Positions 1,063 to 63,968 of a DNA stretch of 64,000 nucleotides are shown here, piece after piece. The position numbers and the translations under genes are program-made. Source of the DNA: Balneolaceae bacterium (GTDB lineage Bacteria; Bacteroidota; Rhodothermia; Balneolales; Balneolaceae); assembly GCA_006969905.1 (NCBI GenBank), contig CP030887.1, forward strand, positions 1,054,001 to 1,118,000, written 5' to 3'. The first letter of the stretch is position 1. Every line of letters starts with the position of its first letter. The notes under the pieces were generated by a model. The model saw nothing but the letters and a program-made list of their open reading frames with translations. It was not told where the DNA came from and did not search any database.

Positions 1063-2298
1063 TTAGTTGGTTAGTGGTGCCCTGGAAATTGGCATTGTCA
1101 TACAACGAGCCCCGCCTCGCCCCCTGCAAAGTTCACGCCCCTGGAAACTGACCGCTATTTTTTGTTCGAGAGATGGATCCAGGCCTTTTTCTCCATATTC
1201 TTCAATAAACTCAAACTGGTCCATATAGGCATATCCGTGGTCAACTAATGTATTGAAGGTTTTAGTATTGCGTTCATATCCAACAATTACTCCGGGGGCT
1301 AAGGCAAAAACATTGGCTCCGTCCGTCCATTGTTCACGGTACTGACTGGTTTTATCCTCGCCACCACACTTTATGAAGGTGTAATCAACACCGGAAAATT
1401 CATTCAGCGTGCTGTGAAGTGAGCTTCTGGATTCAGCTTTTATGTTATCTCCTGCTTTTTGTAGAACAACGACATTGTCTTGTTGATCGATAATGGGCGG
1501 AGGGAAAACGATACACTCATTCCTGCTTGCAAAAGTAAAGATGGTGTCTAAATGCATGGAGGCACGTTGTTTGGGAATATCTATCGCAACCACGGTTTTT
1601 ACCCCATGATCCAAAAGGCCTTCGGTTGCTTTCATCAGGCCTGTAAACGAGGTGCGCTCACTCATACCAATAAGCACTAAATCTTTTGATGCTACCAAAA
1701 CATCCCCTCCCTCAATAGACTGATGTCCCGAAATACGAATAGCACTTTGCTTTGCTCCGCTAAAGAGAGGGTGATATTCAACTAAGGTTTCCATTATAAG
1801 TGACTCGCGAAGCCTAGCCTTTTTTGCTGCGCGTGAAATCAGAATGGAATCATTAACCACGGCAGCAAGATCCCTGGTAAAAAGAAGGTTTGGAGAAGGG
1901 TGAAGGTTAAAACTTTTGGACCGGGCCAAAGTACCTTGAATAGTAAATTCAAGGATCTTTTCGGGTTCCAGTTCTTTTAATTCGCGCTCAATAATAGTAA
2001 GGTTTTCCTCATGGAATTCTCGCACTAACTGGTCAATGAAGTATTCGCGTGCTTCTGCATTTTGAATGGTTTGGCGGAATAAATCTACAACCTCAAAAAT
2101 TTCTCCGTCGTCAGGCATACCGGCTTTAATCATAGCCAGCATATTTAAATGTTCATCCCGGGCATCTTCCTCAAAAATAATGTCATCAAATAAAAGTTCA
2201 TCCGCTAACTCAGGGTTAACCAATGAAACTTCATGCCCAGGTGTGTGGACAATAACACCGTAAAGATGGCCGATTTCAGAAGAAACGTTAATTTTCAT
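1063..2298 (-). CDS. arcA: Arginine deiminase family protein
   Basis: Hydrolyses arginine to citrulline and ammonia, if it is a true arginine deiminase. The 411-residue reading from the ATG at 2298 has the family landmarks: an N-terminal SEIGHLYGVIVHTPG segment, FTRD, EGGDV, MHLDTIFTF (catalytic His and Asp) and a C-terminal RGRGGARCMTMP with the nucleophilic Cys near residue 399. The open frame runs 15 codons further upstream, to 2343, but the family normally begins close to the SEIG segment, so the downstream ATG is preferred. No ornithine carbamoyltransferase or carbamate kinase gene lies nearby, so this is not a standard arcABC energy operon. It is followed immediately by the M50 protease gene. 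Confidence 0.9.
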   Translation of the reverse strand: MKINVSSEIGHLYGVIVHTPGHEVSLVNPELADELLFDDIIFEEDARDEHLNMLAMIKAGMPDDGEIFEVVDLFRQTIQNAEAREYFIDQLVREFHEENLTIIERELKELEPEKILEFTIQGTLARSKSFNLHPSPNLLFTRDLAAVVNDSILISRAAKKARLRESLIMETLVEYHPLFSGAKQSAIRISGHQSIEGGDVLVASKDLVLIGMSERTSFTGLMKATEGLLDHGVKTVVAIDIPKQRASMHLDTIFTFASRNECIVFPPPIIDQQDNVVVLQKAGDNIKAESRSSLHSTLNEFSGVDYTFIKCGGEDKTSQYREQWTDGANVFALAPGVIVGYERNTKTFNTLVDHGYAYMDQFEFIEEYGEKGLDPSLEQKIAVSFQGRELCRGRGGARCMTMPISRAPLTN

Positions 2299-52566: not shown

Positions 52567-54420
52567 TTATTTATCCAGCTCCCAAATAGTGGTTGTTTTA
52601 CCCGGCACCATGAAATCTTTTGAAAGATCAATGTTTGCTTTATCAAGCACATTGGTGCCTTTTGTAAAATCATCGAGAATTTCGCGATACCGGTCACGCC
52701 CTATCATTCTCTCTTCTTCATTCATATTCATAATTACCATAATAGTTTGTTGCTCATGAATACGGAAGTATATATAGATATTTTCTTCAGGTACAAAGTG
52801 CAGGAAGCGACCTTCATGTGTTGCTACAGCGGCTTGTCTCCATTGTGTCAATGCTTTTATATACTCAAAGATTTCCGCTTCTTTCTCTGTTCTGCCTTCT
52901 TCAGTAAATACACTTCGGGTATCATCCGGCCACCCACCCGGCATAGTTTGTCGCCAGCCTTCATCATCACCCCCTCTGTTCTCGTGGGCCAACATTAACT
53001 CAGTTCCATAGTAAACCTGAGGAATCCCCCGCGCCGTCATCAGGAAGGCATAGGCCATTTTAAAATGCTGTTCGTTTTTTCTTACAGTTTCAAATATCCT
53101 GCCCATATCATGATTATCCAGGAAAATTACATTCAGCATCGGGTCTTCATAGACAGCATCCTGGGCAAATAAATAATAAAGGCTACGTAAACCTTCCATC
53201 CATCCAAAATTTTCATTGAAGGCACTTCGCACGGTATTTGCAAATGGGAAGTCTGTGACGCTGGGCAGGTTAGACTGGTAGCCATCAGATTTTCCATCAC
53301 CATCATACTGCCAAAAACCTGACATTTGCACTGTGTTTACCCATGCCTCTCCAACAATATTTAAGTTGGGGTATGCTTCAAGCACTTCTTTAGCCCACTT
53401 CGCCATAAAGTCTTTGTCGGGGTATACATAAGTATCCATTCTAATACCATCAATGCCAGAGTACTCAATCCACCAAAGAGTGTTTTGGATGAGATAATCG
53501 CCCAGTAACTCGTTTTTCTGGTTTAAATCCGGCATTTCACGTACAAACCAGCCATTGGTCAGTTTATCATAATCGTATTTGGATGCATAAGGGTCCGAGG
53601 CTACAGAGCCCCTGAAACTGGTTGTGCCGTAATCTTCAATATCATGAACCCAATCTTTGGTTGGTAAATCTTTCATCCACCAATGCTGATCGCCAATATG
53701 ATTGTTGATCATATCCATAATCACCTTCATTCCCCGGTTGTGAACTTCATCAATCAGGGCTTTATACTCTTCATTGCTTCCGTAACGGCGATCTACTTTA
53801 TATAAATCTGTAGCAGCGTATCCGTGATAAGCACCATACTCCGGTTTCATATCATTTTCGATAATAGGAGTAAACCATATTGCAGTCATACCTATTTCCT
53901 GGATGTAATCTAAGTGATCAAATACACCCTGGATATCCCCTCCCTGTCGTTTAGTTGGATCCTGCCGATTGGCTTTCTCAAGCATTCCTTCAATCGAATC
54001 ATTATCAGGGTTTCCATTAGCAAAACGATCCGGCATCATCAGGTAAATTACATCGCTGGCATCAAAGCCCTGGTTACGGTTTGTTCTTGTCTCTCTTGTT
54101 TGTAACTCATAGGGAACTTTGATGTTTTTTTTACCCCGCTTAAGAATGATTTCCATTTCACCTGCTTTGGCAGAAGGTGAAACATCCATATAGACGAATA
54201 AATAGTTAGGGGAATCGACGGCAATTTGCCGGGTAATTTCAACTCCATCATAATCAACCGATGCTCTGTAGTGCCCAAGTTCTTCTCCATAAAGCTGAAT
54301 CTGAAGCTCTGTAACAGGCATACTAGCCCACCAAAATGGAGGATCTATTTTTTCGACTTGTGCCGAAGAAACGGAATAAAAGAATAGAGCGATGAATAGA
54401 ACCGGGAATACTTTTTTCAT
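52567..54420 (-). CDS. Exported GH13 alpha-amylase / cyclomaltodextrinase-type enzyme
   Basis: 617 residues with a signal peptide (PVLFIALFFYSVSSAQ). An N-terminal beta domain (about residues 20-115) precedes the GH13 barrel. Catalytic residues: Asp329 in GIRMDTYV, Glu358 in VGEAWVN and Asp438 in FLDNHDMG; conserved MDMINNHIGD marks region I. A C-terminal beta domain follows. The arrangement resembles periplasmic SusA/neopullulanase-type enzymes that cut maltodextrins or pullulan. No susC/susD pair is in the window, so it stands outside a polysaccharide locus as far as can be seen. Confidence 0.93.
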   Translation of the reverse strand: MKKVFPVLFIALFFYSVSSAQVEKIDPPFWWASMPVTELQIQLYGEELGHYRASVDYDGVEITRQIAVDSPNYLFVYMDVSPSAKAGEMEIILKRGKKNIKVPYELQTRETRTNRNQGFDASDVIYLMMPDRFANGNPDNDSIEGMLEKANRQDPTKRQGGDIQGVFDHLDYIQEIGMTAIWFTPIIENDMKPEYGAYHGYAATDLYKVDRRYGSNEEYKALIDEVHNRGMKVIMDMINNHIGDQHWWMKDLPTKDWVHDIEDYGTTSFRGSVASDPYASKYDYDKLTNGWFVREMPDLNQKNELLGDYLIQNTLWWIEYSGIDGIRMDTYVYPDKDFMAKWAKEVLEAYPNLNIVGEAWVNTVQMSGFWQYDGDGKSDGYQSNLPSVTDFPFANTVRSAFNENFGWMEGLRSLYYLFAQDAVYEDPMLNVIFLDNHDMGRIFETVRKNEQHFKMAYAFLMTARGIPQVYYGTELMLAHENRGGDDEGWRQTMPGGWPDDTRSVFTEEGRTEKEAEIFEYIKALTQWRQAAVATHEGRFLHFVPEENIYIYFRIHEQQTIMVIMNMNEEERMIGRDRYREILDDFTKGTNVLDKANIDLSKDFMVPGKTTTIWELDK

Positions 54421-55102: not shown

Positions 55103-57727
55103 CTACTCATTCTTTAAACTATCTATTGGATTAGCCAGACCTGTTTTTACCGATTTATAACTTACCGTGGCCAATGCCACAGCTATGGTAAAGAGCCCGG
55201 CAATAATGAAGGTTATGGGGCTGAGTTCAATCCTGAAAGCAAAATCCTGAAGCCAGTTTTGAGCAACGAACCAGCCAATGGGCGCAGCAATTAAAAAGCT
55301 TAAAACTACAAGTTTCAGGAAGTCTTTATTCAACAGAGATATGATTTGAAGAAGATCCGCGCCTAGTACTTTTCGAATGCCAATTTCTCTGGTTCGTTGC
55401 TCGGTTACGAAGGTGGCGAGACCGAATAGTCCCAGAGAGGCGATAACCAATGCAAGCAAGGTAAAGTAATTAAAGATGGTTCCTAACCTAAGGTCTGAGC
55501 GGTACATGTTTTCATAGGAATCGTCGAGAAAGGAATAAGAAAATGGAAAAGAGGGGGAGAATTCTTTGAAAGTGGCTTCCAGTGAAGTAATGGTTTCCTG
55601 AACATCAGACCCGGTTACTTTAACCAACACATACCGCTGATGGTATTTATTAGACAGCATAATGGTTAATGGGGCAATTTCCTGATAGAGTGATAGAAAA
55701 TTAAAGTCTTTTACTACACCAACAATGGTTCCCTCATTTCCCCATGCAGAGAAAGATTTACCCAAAGCTTCCTCTTTGGTCCAACCAAGCCCAGGTAAAG
55801 CTGCTTCGTTTACTAAAAAATCGGCAGAAGTCTCTTTGTAGAAGCTTTCATCAAAAGAACGCCCGGCTACTATTTCCACATCCAGCATTTCAATAAAACC
55901 GAACCCTACGGGAGAAATATAAATTTGAAGCTTTTCCTCGTCATCAGAACCCTCCCAACCCGAAATAGTGGTTCTACTACTCATATAAACCGGATCGAAT
56001 TGAGAAGAGCTGACGCTTTCTACAAAAGGTTTTTTAAGCAACTCGCTTTTAACCGTTTCAAACCGGTCCCAGAGCTCAGAATCAGTCGTTGAAATAGCTA
56101 TTACACGATCTCTCTCCAGGCCGGTATCGGTAGTTCGGATGTAGTCCAGTTGCTTAAATACTACGATGGAGCCGATTAAGAGCACAATTGTGATGGTGAA
56201 TTGACCTACTACTAATAGGTTTCTCAAAAAGATATTTCCCTTTCCTCCCTTAACCTGGCTTTTAAGAATTAAAGCCGGCTTTAGCCTGGACATATAAAAT
56301 GCTGGGTAACTTCCGGAAATAATGCCCACAAATAAACTGGTGGTAAGAGTAAACCCCCAGAACTTCCAGCTTAAAAAGACCTGTGAAGTAAGTTCCCGGC
56401 CAACCAGTTCACCGAAGGTTGGCAAAAAAGCAACGATTATACTCGCAGCAGCGATAATACTAAGCAGAGAGATTACCACTGCTTCCGAAATAAACTGCAT
56501 CATTAAGTTCGAACGAATTGCGCCGCTTGCCTTCCGCACTCCCACTTCTTTAGCCCTTGTAAGAGAACGTGCCGTAGAAAGGTTCATGTAGTTTACACAG
56601 GCAATGAGCAGTATGATTATTGCGATAATCGAAAACATATACACATACCTGATGTCTCCGGAAGAACCCGGGTTAAAGTTCAAATAGCTTGACTTCAAAT
56701 GGATATCTTCAAGAGGCTGTAGCTCATGTATAGGCAGCTTTTCCGGGTTACTTTGATAATAGTCAGAGGCTGCAATATAAGTGTCGGCGAAGCCCGGAAG
56801 TTTTTCAGAGAACTCTTTCACAGAAGCTTCTTCATTGAGGGTTATGAACGTGTATACATTGGTATTACTCCACTCATTCAAATTGTATTTGTAGTAAGGC
56901 GTGGTTTGATCGTTTACTATAAATCGAAAATTGAAATGAGAGTTTTTAGGGGGATCAGCGATTACTCCCGTGATTGTTTTTGTAACTTCTTTTCCGGTTC
57001 CATAAACCTGATCCACACTTTTCCCAATCGGATTTTCATCTCCAAAAAGCAGTTGAGCCATGGTTTGAGTTAGAATAATCGAATTAGGATCGGTAAGCGC
57101 TGTATTGGAGTTGCCTGCATACCATTGGTAGGAGAATGTTTGAAAAAAATCACCATCAGCGATTAAGCCCCGCTCATTAAAAGTGAGATCATCTACGGTT
57201 AAAAGAGTGCGTGTTTGGCCAAAATATGCAGCTGTTTCAACTTCCGGAAAGTCTCGTTTTAAAGTCGTTGCCATTGCGGTTGGAGTAAGTGCAAACCATT
57301 CAGAGCCCTGGTATTCATTACCCGGTTGCTTTGCTACAACCCTGTATGTACGGTCACTGTTTTTATGAAAGGTATCATAACTAAGTTCATACTGGATAAA
57401 TAACCCGATTAATACAAAGCATGTCAGACCTATTGCCAACCCAAAGATGTTTATAAAGGAGTAGCTCTTTTGTTTTTTGAGGCTTCGGAAAGCAATTTTC
57501 AAATAGTTTTTAAACATACTTACAGACCAATAGATTTTATGAATAATTTTTGATGGTGCATATCTAACAACCTGTTGCCAGTACCATCGGTTGGCGGCAG
57601 CTTTACCTTCTTTTTCCTTGATGTAAGAATAGTATTCCTCAAAGTCCCCGAGTGTAGTCTTCCAAACATCATCATACTGAAGTTTGCTAAGGATTTTTTC
57701 GGCAAGTTTTGGGGGCTTCATATTCAT
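55103..57727 (-). CDS. FtsX/MacB-type ABC permease with PadR-linked prefix domain (second of pair)
   Basis: 874 residues. The first ~90 residues are the permease-prefix domain seen next to PadR genes (LAEKILSKLQYDDVWKTTLG and DFEEYYSY). Then comes a transmembrane segment (YSFINIFGLAIGLTCFVLIGL), a large MacB-like periplasmic domain, three helices (IIAIIILLIACVNYMNLSTA...), a second periplasmic domain and a final helix set (GLFGLATFVTEQRTREIGIRKVLGA). No ATPase gene is adjacent, so the partner ATPase, if any, is encoded elsewhere. Starts by overlapping the stop of the paralogue upstream (TAATG). Transported substrate unknown; may act in efflux or lipoprotein traffic. Confidence 0.9.
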   Translation of the reverse strand: MNMKPPKLAEKILSKLQYDDVWKTTLGDFEEYYSYIKEKEGKAAANRWYWQQVVRYAPSKIIHKIYWSVSMFKNYLKIAFRSLKKQKSYSFINIFGLAIGLTCFVLIGLFIQYELSYDTFHKNSDRTYRVVAKQPGNEYQGSEWFALTPTAMATTLKRDFPEVETAAYFGQTRTLLTVDDLTFNERGLIADGDFFQTFSYQWYAGNSNTALTDPNSIILTQTMAQLLFGDENPIGKSVDQVYGTGKEVTKTITGVIADPPKNSHFNFRFIVNDQTTPYYKYNLNEWSNTNVYTFITLNEEASVKEFSEKLPGFADTYIAASDYYQSNPEKLPIHELQPLEDIHLKSSYLNFNPGSSGDIRYVYMFSIIAIIILLIACVNYMNLSTARSLTRAKEVGVRKASGAIRSNLMMQFISEAVVISLLSIIAAASIIVAFLPTFGELVGRELTSQVFLSWKFWGFTLTTSLFVGIISGSYPAFYMSRLKPALILKSQVKGGKGNIFLRNLLVVGQFTITIVLLIGSIVVFKQLDYIRTTDTGLERDRVIAISTTDSELWDRFETVKSELLKKPFVESVSSSQFDPVYMSSRTTISGWEGSDDEEKLQIYISPVGFGFIEMLDVEIVAGRSFDESFYKETSADFLVNEAALPGLGWTKEEALGKSFSAWGNEGTIVGVVKDFNFLSLYQEIAPLTIMLSNKYHQRYVLVKVTGSDVQETITSLEATFKEFSPSFPFSYSFLDDSYENMYRSDLRLGTIFNYFTLLALVIASLGLFGLATFVTEQRTREIGIRKVLGADLLQIISLLNKDFLKLVVLSFLIAAPIGWFVAQNWLQDFAFRIELSPITFIIAGLFTIAVALATVSYKSVKTGLANPIDSLKNE

Positions 57728-60297
57728 TACTCGCTCTTTAAGCTATTTACAGGGTTAGCAAGTGCCGTCTTAACTGATTTATAACTCACAGTAAGGGTGG
57801 CAACCCCTATAGCAATCAAAACAGAGGCAATGAAAATGGACGGCCCTAATTCGATTTTATAGGCAAAGTCTCCCAGCCATATATTCATTGCATACCATCC
57901 GATTGGAATAGCAATGACAAAACTTAGGGCGATGAGCTTCATAAAATCTTTGTTCACCTGGGTTAAGATCTGCACCAGGCTTGCTCCCAAAACCTTTCGA
58001 ATGCCAATTTCTTTGGCCCGTTGCTCCATCATAAAAGAAGCCAAACCAAACAATCCTACCGATGCTATAAAAAGTGCCAGCAAAGTAAAGGCATTAAATA
58101 GTTTTCCGAGGTTGAGATCAGCTTTATACATGTTATCGAAAGCATCATCCAAAAAAGCCACTGTTTCCTCGAGATTATCAGGACGCACTTTTATGGTTAG
58201 ATAGTGATAATCATGTGGCCTGTTAAACCCGATGAGGGCGGCTGCCTGCTCTAATCGAAATGAAAGGAAGCTAAAATCTTTTACTACACCAACCACATTA
58301 CCTTCTCTTTTCCACATCACAAGTTTTTTCCCAAGAACTTCTTCGGGAGTGTAGCCCATACCTTTTACAGCCGACTCATTAAGGATAAACGCATTCGTCT
58401 CATCAGTTGGGAAATCTCTGGAAAAATATCTTCCGGCGACTAATTCAATCTCCATCATTTCCAGATAGTCGTAATGCACATTCTGGAGATAAAATTTGAC
58501 TCGTTTTTCACGACCTTCCCAGTTTACTCCGGAAGTGCTTCCCTGAATATCCATTGGAAGATAGCTGCTTGAAGAGACAGATAGAATGTTAGGATTGGCA
58601 TTTAGATTTTGGGCTACTGTCTCATAATATTTACCAAAATTGTCGTCCTTCAGATTAACGGTAAGAATCTGATCACGTGTATATCCTACATCAGTAGTCC
58701 GGATATAATCCAATTGTTTGAATATGACTATTGAGCAAATAATTAGCACCGTTGTAATTGCAAACTGACCGGTAACAAGCGCGTTTCTCATAAAGGAATT
58801 TCCTTTTCCACCTTTAGTATGGCTTTTGAAAATTCCGGAAGGCTTAAGGGATGACATATAAAAGGCAGGATAACTACCGGCAATTATTCCTACTACAAAA
58901 CTGGTACTAAGTACCGATAACCAAAAACCAGCAGACCTAAACATCTCCGTTCCAATAGAACGGTTTACCAAATTGCTGAAGGGTTCTAAGCAGACCCAAA
59001 CTAAAAGCACTGCAAAAGTGATGCTGAATAGGGAAAGCAACACAGCTTCAGAAGTGAATTGCATAATCAGGTTGGATTTCAGAGCCCCAATTACTTTTCG
59101 AACCCCAACCTCTTTTGCTCTCACTATAGCGCGGGCTGTAGCCAGGTTCATATAGTTTACACAGGCAATAAGAAGGATGATTAAGCCAATCAGAGAAAGC
59201 GTATACACGTAATTGATATTTCCAAGAACCATGCTCACGTTGTGATTAATATGAGAGGACTTTAGATGTATATCTGTAAGTGGCTGAAATCTAAGCTTCG
59301 GTAATTTTTCAGGATCACTTTTATAGTAGGCGATCTCTAACATTTGAGAACTATAGAACTCGTTTATTTTATCAAGAAGCTCATTATTTAGCTCGGAGGT
59401 TTCGGTAAGCTTAGCATAGGTGAAGTAACCATTACTGTCCCAGAAGCTGGCATTTCCTTCATGCCAGGCACTTGATTTCTCATTGGCGATATAGCTAAAA
59501 TGCAGGTGAGATGTTTCCGGCAAGTCTTCAATAACTCCGGTAATCAATTTTATACTAGCCTCCGTCTCATATTCCGGAATTAAGTCCAGGCTTTTACCAA
59601 TCGGATTTTCATTTCCAAATAATTTTTCCGCTAATGATCTTGTTAGAATAATTGATGAAGGATCATTCAGCGCAGTAGCTGGGTTGCCTTGCAACCAGCG
59701 ATAACTGAAGGTTTCAAATAACTCACCACCAGCATATAATCCGTTCTCAAAAAAGGAATTGTCTCCCAGCTTGAGCAATCCGGTAAACGGACTTACATAA
59801 GTTGTATGCTCAAATTGCGGGAAGTTTTCTTTCAATGCACTGTGAAGCATTAAGGGAGTTACTGCACCCAGGTTTGTACCCTGATGGCTTTGTGCATTTT
59901 GCTTTATAATTCTGTAAATGCGGTCTGAATCTTTGAAATGTTTGTCATAGCTTAATTCATGGTGCACAAATAACCCGATAAGTATAAAGCTAGCCAACCC
60001 GATAGCCAGTCCTGATATATTGATGAAAGAATAGCTTTTGTTGGTCTTGAGCCTTCGGAGAGACATCTTCAGATAATTAAAAAACATTTCGATGCTCCAG
60101 TAAAGTTTATGGATGATTTTTGATGGGGCGTATTGAATAACCTGTTTCCAGTACCACCGGTTTGCAGTGGGTATTCCATCCTTTTGTGCCTTGTAGGAAT
60201 AATATTCTTCGAAGTCTCCGAGTGTAGTTTTCCAGACATCATCGTATTGAAGCCTGCTTAGAATTTTCTCTGCAAGTCTTGGTGGTCGATGTTTCAT
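57727..60297 (-). CDS. FtsX/MacB-type ABC permease with PadR-linked prefix domain (first of pair)
   Basis: 856 residues, same architecture as the gene it overlaps: prefix domain with LAEKILSRLQYDDVWKTTLG and DFEEYYSY, first helix SFINISGLAIGLASFILIGL, MacB-like domains, and GLFGLASFMMEQRAKEIGIRKVLGA near the end. The near-identical first ~25 residues and the shared layout show a tandem duplication, while the periplasmic domains have diverged. Its ATG directly follows the PadR stop (TAG then ATG), so all three genes are translated as one unit. Confidence 0.9.
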   Translation of the reverse strand: MKHRPPRLAEKILSRLQYDDVWKTTLGDFEEYYSYKAQKDGIPTANRWYWKQVIQYAPSKIIHKLYWSIEMFFNYLKMSLRRLKTNKSYSFINISGLAIGLASFILIGLFVHHELSYDKHFKDSDRIYRIIKQNAQSHQGTNLGAVTPLMLHSALKENFPQFEHTTYVSPFTGLLKLGDNSFFENGLYAGGELFETFSYRWLQGNPATALNDPSSIILTRSLAEKLFGNENPIGKSLDLIPEYETEASIKLITGVIEDLPETSHLHFSYIANEKSSAWHEGNASFWDSNGYFTYAKLTETSELNNELLDKINEFYSSQMLEIAYYKSDPEKLPKLRFQPLTDIHLKSSHINHNVSMVLGNINYVYTLSLIGLIILLIACVNYMNLATARAIVRAKEVGVRKVIGALKSNLIMQFTSEAVLLSLFSITFAVLLVWVCLEPFSNLVNRSIGTEMFRSAGFWLSVLSTSFVVGIIAGSYPAFYMSSLKPSGIFKSHTKGGKGNSFMRNALVTGQFAITTVLIICSIVIFKQLDYIRTTDVGYTRDQILTVNLKDDNFGKYYETVAQNLNANPNILSVSSSSYLPMDIQGSTSGVNWEGREKRVKFYLQNVHYDYLEMMEIELVAGRYFSRDFPTDETNAFILNESAVKGMGYTPEEVLGKKLVMWKREGNVVGVVKDFSFLSFRLEQAAALIGFNRPHDYHYLTIKVRPDNLEETVAFLDDAFDNMYKADLNLGKLFNAFTLLALFIASVGLFGLASFMMEQRAKEIGIRKVLGASLVQILTQVNKDFMKLIALSFVIAIPIGWYAMNIWLGDFAYKIELGPSIFIASVLIAIGVATLTVSYKSVKTALANPVNSLKSE

Positions 60298-60624
60298 CTA
60301 GCTAAGTCCAAACATTAGTTGGGGCACTCCGCTCCAGATTGTTTGTTGAACTTCATAGGCGTACCTGAGGGCTTCTTTACCGGAAGGGGTGAGTGAGTAG
60401 ATGCGCTTATGTCGCCCACCACGTTCGGGAGTGGAGTCGGAAAGAGAGGATTTCAGGTACCCTCTTTTTTCCAGACGTTCCAAGGGCATGTAAATTCCAC
60501 CCAGCGACCAGTCTTTGTCAGTAATTTCATTCAGCTTTTCCTGGATAGGTATGCTGTAAGCTTCGTCCTGTAATTTCCAGACAGCAAGTAGAATAAATTC
60601 TTCGGTTCGGGTAAGTAGTTTCAT
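60298..60624 (-). CDS. PadR family transcriptional regulator
   Basis: 108 residues, the minimal winged-helix PadR type: EEFILLAVWKLQDEAYSIPIQ, GGIYMPLERLEKRGYLKS, and GGRHKRIYSLTPSGKEAL with the wing. The C-terminal helix would form the dimer. First gene of an operon with two permeases; such PadR genes normally repress their own operon and respond to a ligand, cell-envelope stress or drugs. A long dyad lies just upstream. Confidence 0.92.
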   Translation of the reverse strand: MKLLTRTEEFILLAVWKLQDEAYSIPIQEKLNEITDKDWSLGGIYMPLERLEKRGYLKSSLSDSTPERGGRHKRIYSLTPSGKEALRYAYEVQQTIWSGVPQLMFGLS

Positions 60625-60632
60625 AAGTAATC

Positions 60633-60693
60633 AATTCTAAAAAGTTGAAACTAATACTAGTTAAAAATTTATTTGTTTCAAAAATTTAGAAAT
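60633..60693. promoter_or_regulatory. Long dyad upstream of the PadR operon, candidate PadR operator
   Basis: Left arm AATTCTAAAAAGTTGAAAC (60633-60651), right arm GTTTCAAAAATTTAGAAAT (60675-60693), 23 nt between them. The inner stretch contains ATACTAGT. The related dyad at 62465 shares the TTGAAACTAAT and TTTGTTTCAAAA elements. Confidence 0.55.
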
Positions 60694-60712
60694 GGAAGAT
60701 TAAGGTTCAGAT

Positions 60713-62401
60713 TTAGTTTGTCTGCACTTTTTTGAAAAGCTGATTTTTAGCTCTGTACTGGGTTACTGATAGCCCAGTGATAGCCCCGGTTTCATTTCTT
60801 TGAAACTCTACCAAATCTGTGAACCATTCAGAACCTTTAAACTCGTCGCTCCAGGCGTGGATTAATTCAATGTCCCCGTTTTGAAAGTGAGATAGTTTTA
60901 ATTTCTCATCCTCAAACACAACTTCATAGGAAGTACTAAGTTCATCACTCCAATAAGTGCCGGTATATTCAGAAGGGTTTGTAAGAGTTGGAGAAATCTT
61001 GTTACTCACTTTTGGACTAATAGAATTATTGTAAATCAGGTGCGCAATTCCACCATTTTCGTTAGCAAAAAACTCCATCGTTCTGTTTCCATACGCTGGA
61101 ATTTCAAAAAGGCTATCAGAAAGGGCAGTCATTGGATATTTATCTTCATAAGTAGCCTGCGTCCATAACCGACCATCTTCTTTTGTTAAATGTACATACC
61201 AACCGGGGCCTAGTTTGTAAGTACCTGTGTAATCGTCTAAAAGATCATCAGGGATAGAAAAACTTTCTGCTGTTTTTTCATCTTCATTGCTACCAGAATC
61301 CTGCTGACCGGCTTCTTTTCTTGGAACATAATAACTTGCAATTCGACCGACTATATTAAACGAGTTTTGTCTATTGTTACTAAGTACGACAATTGCTAAA
61401 TCTTTTTCTGGTAGCATGGTGATATAAGTATCGAAAGAAGCCCAACCACCTGAATGTGAAATCCAAGGTGTGCCTCTGAAAGTATTTATGTTGATTCCAT
61501 ACGCATAGTTATTCTTCTCACCGGTAGATAAAGGCTGAGTTAGCATCATTCGATTTACAACCGCTTTCTTTTTATCAGACGGATACATTAAGTGATTTAC
61601 CCATTTTGCCAAATCATTTGTACTGGAGTATAAAGAGCTGGATCCTAGTGCCGTAAGTAAATTTGGAGATTCGTAAAACTTTCCGTTGCTCCGATAATAT
61701 CCAACAGCTCTTTTTTTTATTACTTCTTTATGGTTATCCAGAAAAAAGGTTTGTGTCATGCCCAACGGTTGGAAGATATTTTGGTTTGTCCAATCACGAA
61801 AAGATAACCCGGTAGTTCTTTCAACGATTTCTGCCAGTAGATTATATCCCGTATTTGTGTACCGGTATTCATCGCCGGGTGTAAAATTTAATTCCTTCTG
61901 TTGAAAAGCCATTCTAAGAATATGATCCATACTTATAACATCGTCAAAAGTCCTTCCAGAAAGAGGTAAAGTACTTGTCCAATCTCGTATTCCACTAGTA
62001 TGGTGTAGCAGATTACCAATGGTTATCGGTTTATCGAATTCGGGAAATTCGGGAATATAAGTTTGAATGTTATCATCCTCAGAAAGAACACCTTGCTCGG
62101 CGAGTAAAGCGATGGAGTACCCGGCAAATTGCTTGGCTAGCGATGCGAGATCAAACAATGTGCTAGGGGTGATTGGAACATCATAATCCAGATTCGCAAG
62201 CCCATACCCCTTATTAAGGATAATTTCTTTGTCTTTTACTACAAGTACAGCCGAACCGGGTGTGTTTTCAGATACGTTTTCAAGAAGCAATGAATCTACT
62301 TTTTGATGTAGTTCTTTGGGTTGAATCTGAGATACGACTGATGCCGAAAAGACGATTAAAAACAGAAATAATTTGGAGAAAAAGAGGGTTAATTTTTTCA
62401 T
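60713..62401 (-). CDS. Serine hydrolase, beta-lactamase/class C family, exported
   Basis: 562 residues with a signal peptide (LTLFFSKLFLFLIVFSASVVSQ). Active-site motifs: SLAK in DLASLAKQFAG, YTN in YRYTNTGYNLL and HSGG in WISHSGGWASFD. After the ~370-residue catalytic domain come ~190 residues in two similar beta-barrel-like repeats (DDYTGTYKLGPGWYVHL and PSEYTGTYWSDELSTSY), resembling the small domains of peptidases of this group. Divergent from the methyltransferase gene and sharing the dyad at 62465 with it, so it may be part of the PadR regulon. Confidence 0.88.
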   Translation of the reverse strand: MKKLTLFFSKLFLFLIVFSASVVSQIQPKELHQKVDSLLLENVSENTPGSAVLVVKDKEIILNKGYGLANLDYDVPITPSTLFDLASLAKQFAGYSIALLAEQGVLSEDDNIQTYIPEFPEFDKPITIGNLLHHTSGIRDWTSTLPLSGRTFDDVISMDHILRMAFQQKELNFTPGDEYRYTNTGYNLLAEIVERTTGLSFRDWTNQNIFQPLGMTQTFFLDNHKEVIKKRAVGYYRSNGKFYESPNLLTALGSSSLYSSTNDLAKWVNHLMYPSDKKKAVVNRMMLTQPLSTGEKNNYAYGININTFRGTPWISHSGGWASFDTYITMLPEKDLAIVVLSNNRQNSFNIVGRIASYYVPRKEAGQQDSGSNEDEKTAESFSIPDDLLDDYTGTYKLGPGWYVHLTKEDGRLWTQATYEDKYPMTALSDSLFEIPAYGNRTMEFFANENGGIAHLIYNNSISPKVSNKISPTLTNPSEYTGTYWSDELSTSYEVVFEDEKLKLSHFQNGDIELIHAWSDEFKGSEWFTDLVEFQRNETGAITGLSVTQYRAKNQLFKKVQTN

Positions 62402-62464
62402 ACTCGGATTAAGTTTTTGCTACTCTGACAGTCACTTATCATACATAACAAGGTTACAAATTTT

Positions 62465-62533
62465 CAATTCTTATTTTTTGAAACTAATCGCAATACTACA
62501 AACTGTAGTGTTTGTTTCAAAATTTTAGAATTG
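62465..62533. promoter_or_regulatory. Long dyad between serine hydrolase and methyltransferase, candidate PadR operator
   Basis: Outer arms CAATTCTTATTTTTTGAAAC (62465-62484) and GTTTCAAAATTTTAGAATTG (62514-62533), with an inner perfect dyad ACTACA-AAC-TGTAGT (62495-62509). It has the same outer sequences as the dyad at 60633 but a spacer 6 nt longer. The inner ACTACA/TGTAGT pair also recalls BlaI-type operators. Confidence 0.55.
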
Positions 62534-62568
62534 GGAGGAGAAAAACTTTTCTCTGTTTATTTTCCGCC

Positions 62569-63237
62569 ATGGAAAAAACTCAAAAGAAAATCAAAAAGCC
62601 CTGGCCTATAAAGGAAGCGATGCAGCAGGTGTATAGTGAGCATCTTTGGGGTGGAGATGAATTTGATTTCTATTCAGGAGAGGGTTCGCATGCGATAGGG
62701 CTTATAGAACCGTATGTGGAAGCAGTAGTTTCTTTTTTAACGAACTTTGAAGAACCAATTTCAGTGTGTGATTTAGGGTGTGGTGATTTTAACGTAGGAA
62801 TGAAACTTGTTGAATACACACAGAAGTATGTTGCCATAGATATTGTACCCGAATTGGTTGATAGAAATAAAAAACTATTCGAACAGGATAATCTTGAGTT
62901 TCGATGCCTGGATATTGCTAAAGATGCGTTGCCTGTAGCTGATTGTGCAATAGTGAAGCAAGTGCTTCAGCATCTGTCAAATAAGGAAGTTCAACAGGTG
63001 GTGGAAAAGTTACAGAACTACAAATATGTACTTCTTACAGAGCATGTGCCAGAAGGAGAATTCGAAGCTAATCTTGATATTATATCCGGGCAGGGCACAC
63101 GGCTTAAGAAGAACAGTGGAATAAACTTGTTGGCCTCACCTTTCAACTTAAAGGTGAAAGAAGAAAGGGAGTTACTTTCAATCAATTTGGAAGAGGGAAA
63201 GGGAGTTATTGAAACGAGGCTCTTCACAATTTTCTAA
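62569..63237 (+). CDS. Class I SAM-dependent methyltransferase
   Basis: 222 residues from the ATG at 62569. An earlier TTG (62512) is in frame but would lie inside the dyad; the family pattern starts after 62569. SAM-binding VCDLGCGDFNVG near residue 70, the acidic loop AIDIVPELV, and CAIVKQVLQHLSNKEV (motif IV-V region) are visible. Substrate unknown. A GGGAGGAG lies 28 nt before the ATG, too far for a ribosome site. Divergent from the serine hydrolase. Confidence 0.82.
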   Translation: MEKTQKKIKKPWPIKEAMQQVYSEHLWGGDEFDFYSGEGSHAIGLIEPYVEAVVSFLTNFEEPISVCDLGCGDFNVGMKLVEYTQKYVAIDIVPELVDRNKKLFEQDNLEFRCLDIAKDALPVADCAIVKQVLQHLSNKEVQQVVEKLQNYKYVLLTEHVPEGEFEANLDIISGQGTRLKKNSGINLLASPFNLKVKEERELLSINLEEGKGVIETRLFTIF

Positions 63238-63335: not shown

Positions 63336-63968
63336 TTGACGAACTCTGAATTTACTGACTTACTGAAACCGCATTATAACGATGCGGTTAACTACAGCAG
63401 GGCACTTTGCTCCGGTTCTACCAAAGCCGAAGCAGAAGACGTTCTGCAACAAGCCTTATTAAAAGCTTTCGAGAAAATTGATTCGCTTAAAGATGAGACA
63501 AAATTCAGAAGCTGGTTTTTTCAGATTATTACCCGGTGCTTTTATAACGCTGTACGTAAACCATTTTGGAGCAGGTTTGTGTCGCTGAACTCAGATAAGG
63601 GCGAAGCCGCATTCACTATATTTGAGGACGATTTTTTTGAAGAAAACCAAGTATTAATCGGAGCATTGTCTAAGCTCGAAAAGAAAGAACGGGCTGCTTT
63701 ACTTCTGTTCGAAATAGGAGGCTTTTCAATCAAAGAGATCACAGATATGCAAAAAGAGAAAAGCGAATCAGCGGTAAAATCGAGGTTAAGCCGTACAAGA
63801 AAAAAACTTGAAGAATTCATGGTAACGCTTGAGCAGGAGTCAGATTCAACTCTGAAATCGATCAAGCTTAATATCGTACAGAAGCAAAATATTGCATCTC
63901 AACGAACAACTAAAGACCTATACCATGAGACCTCTAACGTTATCAAGGAAATCAAATCCATTGGGTGA
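63336..63968 (+). CDS. ECF-type RNA polymerase sigma factor
   Basis: 210 residues from a TTG at 63336; no ATG is in frame near the conserved start. Region 2: AEDVLQQALLKAFEKIDSLKDETKFRSWFFQIITR; region 4: LEKKERAALLLFEIGGFSIKEITDMQKEKSESAVKSRLSRTRKKL. The ~45-residue tail after region 4 is longer than usual and may contact an anti-sigma factor. The start of the next gene, 4 nt downstream, is probably its anti-sigma factor. Confidence 0.88.
   Translation: MTNSEFTDLLKPHYNDAVNYSRALCSGSTKAEAEDVLQQALLKAFEKIDSLKDETKFRSWFFQIITRCFYNAVRKPFWSRFVSLNSDKGEAAFTIFEDDFFEENQVLIGALSKLEKKERAALLLFEIGGFSIKEITDMQKEKSESAVKSRLSRTRKKLEEFMVTLEQESDSTLKSIKLNIVQKQNIASQRTTKDLYHETSNVIKEIKSIG

Follow-up and report, generated by a model that had tools for sequence, protein, structure and literature searches.

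Two intergenic regions in the genome of a Balneolaceae bacterium carry the same long DNA signal at promoters ~1.8 kb apart, one ahead of a padR-like gene and two permease genes, the other between an exported serine hydrolase and a methyltransferase, which raises the question of whether one regulator reads both and which genes it would then govern. A preliminary description of this DNA had proposed PadR as the shared regulator of all four neighbours, the two permeases, the hydrolase and the methyltransferase. The window referred to here is the whole stretch of DNA that was analysed (64,000 nucleotides; contig CP030887.1, positions 1,054,001 to 1,118,000), and the features concerned are listed below in window coordinates, with arm scores taken from the half-site matrix described further on.

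52567..54420, minus strand: alpha-amylase/cyclomaltodextrinase-like gene, downstream of the permeases
55103..57727, minus strand: permease 2, FtsX/MacB-like, overlapping permease 1 end to start
57727..60297, minus strand: permease 1, MacB_PCD/FtsX, directly after padR
60298..60624, minus strand: padR, 108 aa, PadR-2-type winged-helix regulator (PF03551, 38.2 bits; cut-off 27)
60632-60694: dyad 1, between hydrolase and padR
60632..60651, plus strand: padR-proximal arm of dyad 1, CAATTCTAAAAAGTTGAAAC, downstream of the -7-like element; candidate PadR operator (32.3 bits)
60675..60694, minus strand: upstream arm of dyad 1, CATTTCTAAATTTTTGAAAC, its TTG the -33-like element of the padR promoter; candidate PadR operator (27.9 bits)
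60654..60691, minus strand: predicted padR core promoter, conserved arm plus TTG-N19-TAGTAT
60713..62401, minus strand: exported serine hydrolase, Beta-lactamase (PF00144) plus DUF3471
62465-62533: dyad 2, between hydrolase and methyltransferase
62465..62484, plus strand: hydrolase-proximal arm of dyad 2, CAATTCTTATTTTTTGAAAC (26.1 bits)
62514..62533, minus strand: methyltransferase-proximal arm of dyad 2, CAATTCTAAAATTTTGAAAC, its TTG the -33-like element of the hydrolase promoter (31.6 bits)
62493..62530, minus strand: predicted hydrolase core promoter, conserved arm plus TTG-N19-TAGTAT
62569..63237, plus strand: SAM-dependent methyltransferase, divergent from dyad 2
63336-63968, plus strand: ECF-type sigma factor gene, after the methyltransferase

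Each dyad consists of two inverted 20-bp arms with the consensus CAWTTC-N7-TTGAAAC (full arm CAATTC-N7-TTGAAAC), and the two dyads have the same orientation relative to padR and to the hydrolase gene, respectively. The sequences said to be common to both were found where they had been placed, with TTGAAACTAAT exact at 60645-60655 and 62478-62488, TTTGTTTCAAAA starting at 60672 and 62511, and the outer AATTCT/AGAAT present in both dyads, one side of dyad 1 being imperfect (TTTCT). Within a dyad the arms agree with one another at 16 of 20 positions (dyad 1) or 17 of 20 (dyad 2). The picture of two equal dyads required correction, since the GAAAC..GTTTC span is 33 bp in dyad 1 vs 39 bp in dyad 2, and an inner ACTACAaacTGTAGT repeat (62495-62509) is peculiar to dyad 2, being absent from the seven other dyads described here. 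This inner repeat may be a site for another regulator; its ACTACA..TGTAGT, which we presumed to resemble a BlaI/MecI site, was dropped as a candidate because the repeat is missing from the other seven dyads.

The specificity of the signal was assessed within the window and across the genome (one contig, 3.49 Mb). A half-site matrix was trained on the padR promoters of five other genomes (10 arms), with the window and the hydrolase dyads excluded, and gave the four window arms scores of 26.1, 27.9, 31.6 and 32.3 bits, compared with 9.9 bits for the next-best window site and a maximum of 17.7 bits in 12 dinucleotide shuffles of the 64-kb window. An arm pattern, drawn up with these four arms already known, gave 70 genome-wide matches at up to 3 mismatches vs 68 for the reversed control, and these comprised the four arms at 0 mismatches, none at 1 mismatch and another 66 at 2-3 mismatches. 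The looser pattern GAAACNAAN{5,35}TTNGTTTC occurred at four places, namely both dyads and the loci L001 and L002, with 5 per strand in the reversed control; L001 and L002 were rejected as further dyads and put down to chance, since both lie inside open reading frames and the control is equally frequent. A genome-wide search for the dyad, proposed earlier as a check, thus yielded no further credible copy and no spread over many unrelated loci. The other four proteins of this genome that exceed the PF03551 cut-off likewise lack the arms in their loci (best 8.0 bits). At one of them, L005, ATGT-N10-ACAT forms part of a perfect 18-bp inverted repeat that lies at the first ATG (~1762-1803, minus strand), a position which suggests that the true start codon of that padR lies further downstream; this textbook-type repeat also suggests, from its sequence, that each PadR has its own DNA signal. 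Cross-talk from the other PadRs of the genome may nonetheless occur at the arms studied here.

Orthologues of the window PadR were found in six of 92 genomes of the family, the window's own included (74-100% identity; G077 96%, G028 91%, G030 and G012 81%, G076 74-75%), and in all six a dyad lies 5-8 bp before the padR start. An 18-letter pattern for the whole dyad, TTC-N7-TTGAAACAAA-N12-TANTAT, written from these same dyads, had 8 exact matches in 128 genomes of the order and 0 for the reversed control, two each in the window genome and G076, one each in G077, G028, G030 and G012, and none elsewhere. Every one of the eight lies 5′ of padR or of the hydrolase gene, and only in the six genomes with a PadR at least 74% identical to that of the window, a phyletic match that rests on six genomes, of which G076 is incomplete (82%). 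Allowing one mismatch in the 92 family genomes added four matches (G003, G006, G007 and G101) vs 2 for the control. The proposal of one shared regulator, with PadR as the candidate, finds good support in this co-occurrence: the dyad is confined to genomes with this PadR orthologue and to positions 5′ of padR or the adjacent hydrolase. The padR gene's own promoter carries the dyad in 6/6 orthologues and the hydrolase promoter in 2/2, so that the same candidate operator stands at the regulator's own promoter and at a second local one, conserved in orthologous loci, as in an autoregulated local regulon.

More distant relatives showed other arrangements. Among PadRs of a group with ~60% identity, inspection by eye of L149 and L152 revealed TTC...GAAAC, a CGTA box and a TTC/GAA palindrome before the start, a plan not clearly seen by eye in L148, L150 and L151 of the same group, and the matrix gave no score above 5.4 bits at any of the five loci L148-L152. 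In a second PadR group (L015, L016, L018, L022, L118 and L119) a near-perfect palindrome of the type TATTTGTTcTAAATTTTAaAACAAATA is found a few bases before padR, which by its sequence is a different putative operator at the same position.

That two copies flank the hydrolase gene is what an insertion or a local duplication would give, and a mobile, MITE-like repeat or recent duplication with no regulatory meaning was considered accordingly. Such an element would have to account for the presence of only two copies in the genome and for the fixed distances to start codons (5-8 bp at padR, 63 bp at the hydrolase). Nor is dyad 2 a fresh copy of dyad 1: it is closer to the dyads of G012 and G076 (the 39-bp type) than to dyad 1, and its hydrolase-proximal arm shares all 20 bases with the right arm of the padR dyad in G012 and with that of the hydrolase dyad in G076. 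The genome-wide counts led us to reject a dispersed repeat, and we regard an origin of this kind without regulatory function as very improbable.

Membership of the putative regulon differed in credibility between the neighbours. At E <= 1e-120 the only hydrolase orthologue in the 92 genomes besides that of the window was found in G076 (72% identity), directly 5′ of padR, none being found at that threshold in the other four of the six dyad genomes; the arrangement in G076 is dyad-hydrolase-dyad-padR, as in the window, with the hydrolase dyad 63 bp before the hydrolase start in both. A single DNA alignment between the two (59969-62536, 70% identity) runs from permease 1 through padR, dyad 1 and the hydrolase gene to the far edge of dyad 2. 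All 19 loci of distant hydrolase homologues (31-38% identity) lacked an arm (best 8.0 bits). The methyltransferase gene diverges from the padR dyad in G077 (L114), but in the 400 nt 5′ of 14/14 other methyltransferase orthologues (L040-L053, a set including that of G012 and excluding that of G077) no arms were found (best 4.3 bits), compared with 31.6 bits in the same scan of the window gene (L039). In G012 the gene lies 6 kb from padR, without a dyad, after a WYL-type gene; the intervening region (L061, 8370-14247) holds RtcB-like and TROVE/Ro60-like genes with the WYL-type regulator between padR and the methyltransferase, labels that reflect our reading of the translations. A methyltransferase-strand promoter of normal spacing was sought by eye in dyad 2 and none was seen, TTG and TAGTGTTTG being 25 nt apart. 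The claim of one regulon is therefore credible for the permeases and the hydrolase, which with padR form a probable unit by sequence and position, whilst the link to the methyltransferase is weak, its membership being uncertain and suggested by adjacency in the window and G077 only. The alpha-amylase-like gene, found in the same place in G012, G028, G030 and G077, may be a distal member of the operon.

The regulator itself is PadR-like by profile, sequence and fold. Its sequence matches solved PadR proteins, and a structural model, built from four sequences only and poor in the tail, has the order H-H-H-E-E-H with a mean pLDDT of 81.5 and the last 10 residues below 50; the best structural matches include LmrR, LftR and CdPadR (E 7e-6 to 4e-5). 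Both the length and the single C-terminal helix agree with PadR-2 proteins (~100-110 residues). Residues Y23 and Y45, both invariant in four orthologues, line up with tyrosines of 5dym. The padR_acidobact and ADOP families go together, and these families (TIGR03433 and TIGR03434) were the best NCBIfam matches of the window proteins, which share with them the placing of padR beside large, duplicated FtsX-type permeases; scores nevertheless fell far below the curated cut-offs (28.9 vs 101.8 for the regulator, 271.5 and 286.5 vs 622.3 for the permeases). The fold also matched structure 6abt, which we take to be LftR, with a TM of 0.75. LftR, the PadR-2 regulator of lieAB in Listeria monocytogenes, too has 108 aa, a partly palindromic site ahead of its own gene and two signature tyrosines, Y28 and Y48, in contact with DNA (PMC6457526), to which Y23 and Y45 would correspond by position in the domain rather than by direct alignment to LftR. 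LftR differs in its operator and targets, and shows ~27% identity to the window PadR in structural alignment. LmrR, the PadR-2 regulator of the LmrCD transporter in Lactococcus lactis, is likewise a small dimer of the winged-helix type, controls its own gene along with neighbouring transporter genes, and ranks among the best fold matches; its half-sites are reported to be spaced 8-10 bp apart, with two dimers on one operator (PMC5428041). The two systems differ in their sites, ATGT-Nn-ACAT for LmrR and TTC-N9-GAA in the window, there as two inverted copies with the promoter between them, and in that LmrCD is a full ABC transporter whereas the window padR precedes FtsX/MacB-type permeases.

How such a protein might read the dyads depends on the promoters within them. 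A -33 TTG with its usual spacing is a feature of Bacteroidota promoters, and in all eight dyads TTG-N19-TA is constant, the TTG lying in the upstream arm and the TA being that of TANTAT. This fits a -33/-7 core promoter of the Bacteroidota kind, the -7 element being a partial match only to the consensus TAnnTTTG quoted from PMC9723704. A listing of predicted promoters gives TTGAAA-16-TAGTAT at padR, its count of promoters being not above chance. The distance from the TA to the downstream arm is 6, 8 or 14 bp, and the arm-to-arm span 31, 33 or 39 bp. Because the span varies while TTG-N19-TA is constant, the arms behave as separate sites, and a single long dyad read by one protein was rejected. 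The dyads of the preliminary description are thus better read as two candidate operators around a promoter. A TTC-N9-GAA inverted repeat lies within 15 of the 16 arms, and its geometry resembles that of PadR sites, being near the half-site spacing (8 bp in the canonical box and 10 in the lmrCD operator) and near the 22 bp spanned by an LmrR dimer (PMC5428041). The canonical PadR box ATGT-N8-ACAT (or N10) was sought by eye in the dyads and was absent, the arms being CAWTTC-N7-TTGAAAC. Judging by these sequences, the arms probably form a pair of PadR operators, one on each side of the promoter, rather than one rigid dyad.

The same arm contains TGAAAC, which could instead be the -35 element of a promoter recognised by an ECF sigma factor, perhaps the product of the gene at 63336-63968, so that the two promoters would share a sigma factor and not PadR. 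GAAAC-N15/16-CGTA is an ECF-like promoter type, and of another 26 padR genes that we examined, 10 (L148-L152, L015, L016, L018, L022 and L119) have it in the 130 nt on their 5′ side, against ~0.01 expected per 130 nt, as if an ECF sigma factor drove many padR-permease operons. In the window, G077, G030 and G012, an orthologous ECF gene is also a close neighbour of padR or of the methyltransferase. The -10 here, however, is TAGTAT and not CGTA or CGTC, and a sigma factor would leave unexplained both the outer CAATTC and the second arm, which lies downstream of the -7 element. Among the 92 genomes the ECF orthologue is present in 13, yet is missing from dyad-bearing G028 and occurs in 8 genomes without the dyad. 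We consider a shared sigma factor in place of PadR improbable, although the GAAAC part of the arm may owe its conservation to a role as promoter -35 element and not as operator.

Inverted repeats of this length might also act as RNA, in a terminator, attenuator or leader hairpin, and some folding results point that way, since folding is better than in shuffles for single strands of the window dyads (z -2.5 and -3.4; -5.5 on the methyltransferase strand) and likewise for the G028 dyad (z -4.6). The G012 dyad folded no better than shuffles (z -0.1), that of the G076 hydrolase did so weakly (z -1.5), and there was no covariation beyond shuffles (0.039 vs a shuffled mean of 0.044; paired cells 83.6% vs 84.1%, in an alignment that lacks one cell of G028, whose row begins a base too late). 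The upstream arm, which overlaps the -33 element, would lie outside an mRNA from that promoter. An Rfam search gave no match, and no terminator-like stem with a T run was found inside them. Uncompensated changes in arm positions fit protein-DNA contact rather than a hairpin, and since the changes are uncompensated and folding fails in G012, we attach very little probability to a role as RNA.

The dyads are most likely, on the strength of their sequence and distribution, a specific and conserved operator pair read by PadR, and there is a good probability that the locus is a small local PadR regulon with paired predicted operators around two promoters. The 108-aa PadR would bind as a dimer to TTC-N9-GAA-type operators, two of which, inverted, appear to bracket each promoter, the first overlapping the -33 TTG and the second placed immediately downstream of the -7 element. 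Spans of 31, 33 and 39 bp make it hard to see how one dimer could read both arms, and each arm is itself a PadR-site-like repeat, so two dimers per promoter are envisaged, at the -33 and at the start region respectively. With both operators occupied, RNA polymerase would be blocked, and PadR would repress its own padR-permease-permease operon together with the upstream hydrolase gene, repression being favoured here over activation. A presumed ligand would then release PadR, inducing both transcription units; the methyltransferase may, less certainly, share dyad 2. A local regulon of this kind is ordinary, and it is the operator that is uncommon.

Comparison with G077 (apparently ih13) touches on how such a locus might evolve. 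In this genome the hydrolase is absent and a single dyad lies between methyltransferase and padR, and the dyad stands at the borders of what would be an exchangeable gene (methyltransferase-dyad-padR in G077 vs methyltransferase-dyad-hydrolase-dyad-padR in the window). Homology between the two stops at 60694 on the padR side and begins again at 62511 on the methyltransferase side, i.e. at the two dyads, end points that are in part to be expected, since nothing but the dyad is conserved in these intergenic regions. Conservation is far higher for the regulator than for its cargo, with 96% identity for PadR vs 49% for permease 1, 64% for permease 2 and 71% for the methyltransferase. It is conceivable, though on balance doubtful, that PadR together with the operator pair acts as a control unit that is portable and changes its cargo. 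If so, recombination between the two directly repeated dyads would remove the regulated gene next to padR, and gain of an operator-bearing gene would add one there without new wiring.

Among the open-licence PubMed Central matches listed for PadR with Balneola, Gracilimonas, Rhodothermota or Bacteroidetes, there was no paper on this operator. The present analysis provides a concrete candidate operator for a PadR subfamily in Balneolaceae, and suggests that the PadR-permease operons of this group have operators that are unlike the textbook PadR box and that may be recognised as a pair of sites enclosing the promoter. It would also tie an exported serine hydrolase to permeases of the FtsX type, hinting that the two deal with one and the same compound or envelope stress.
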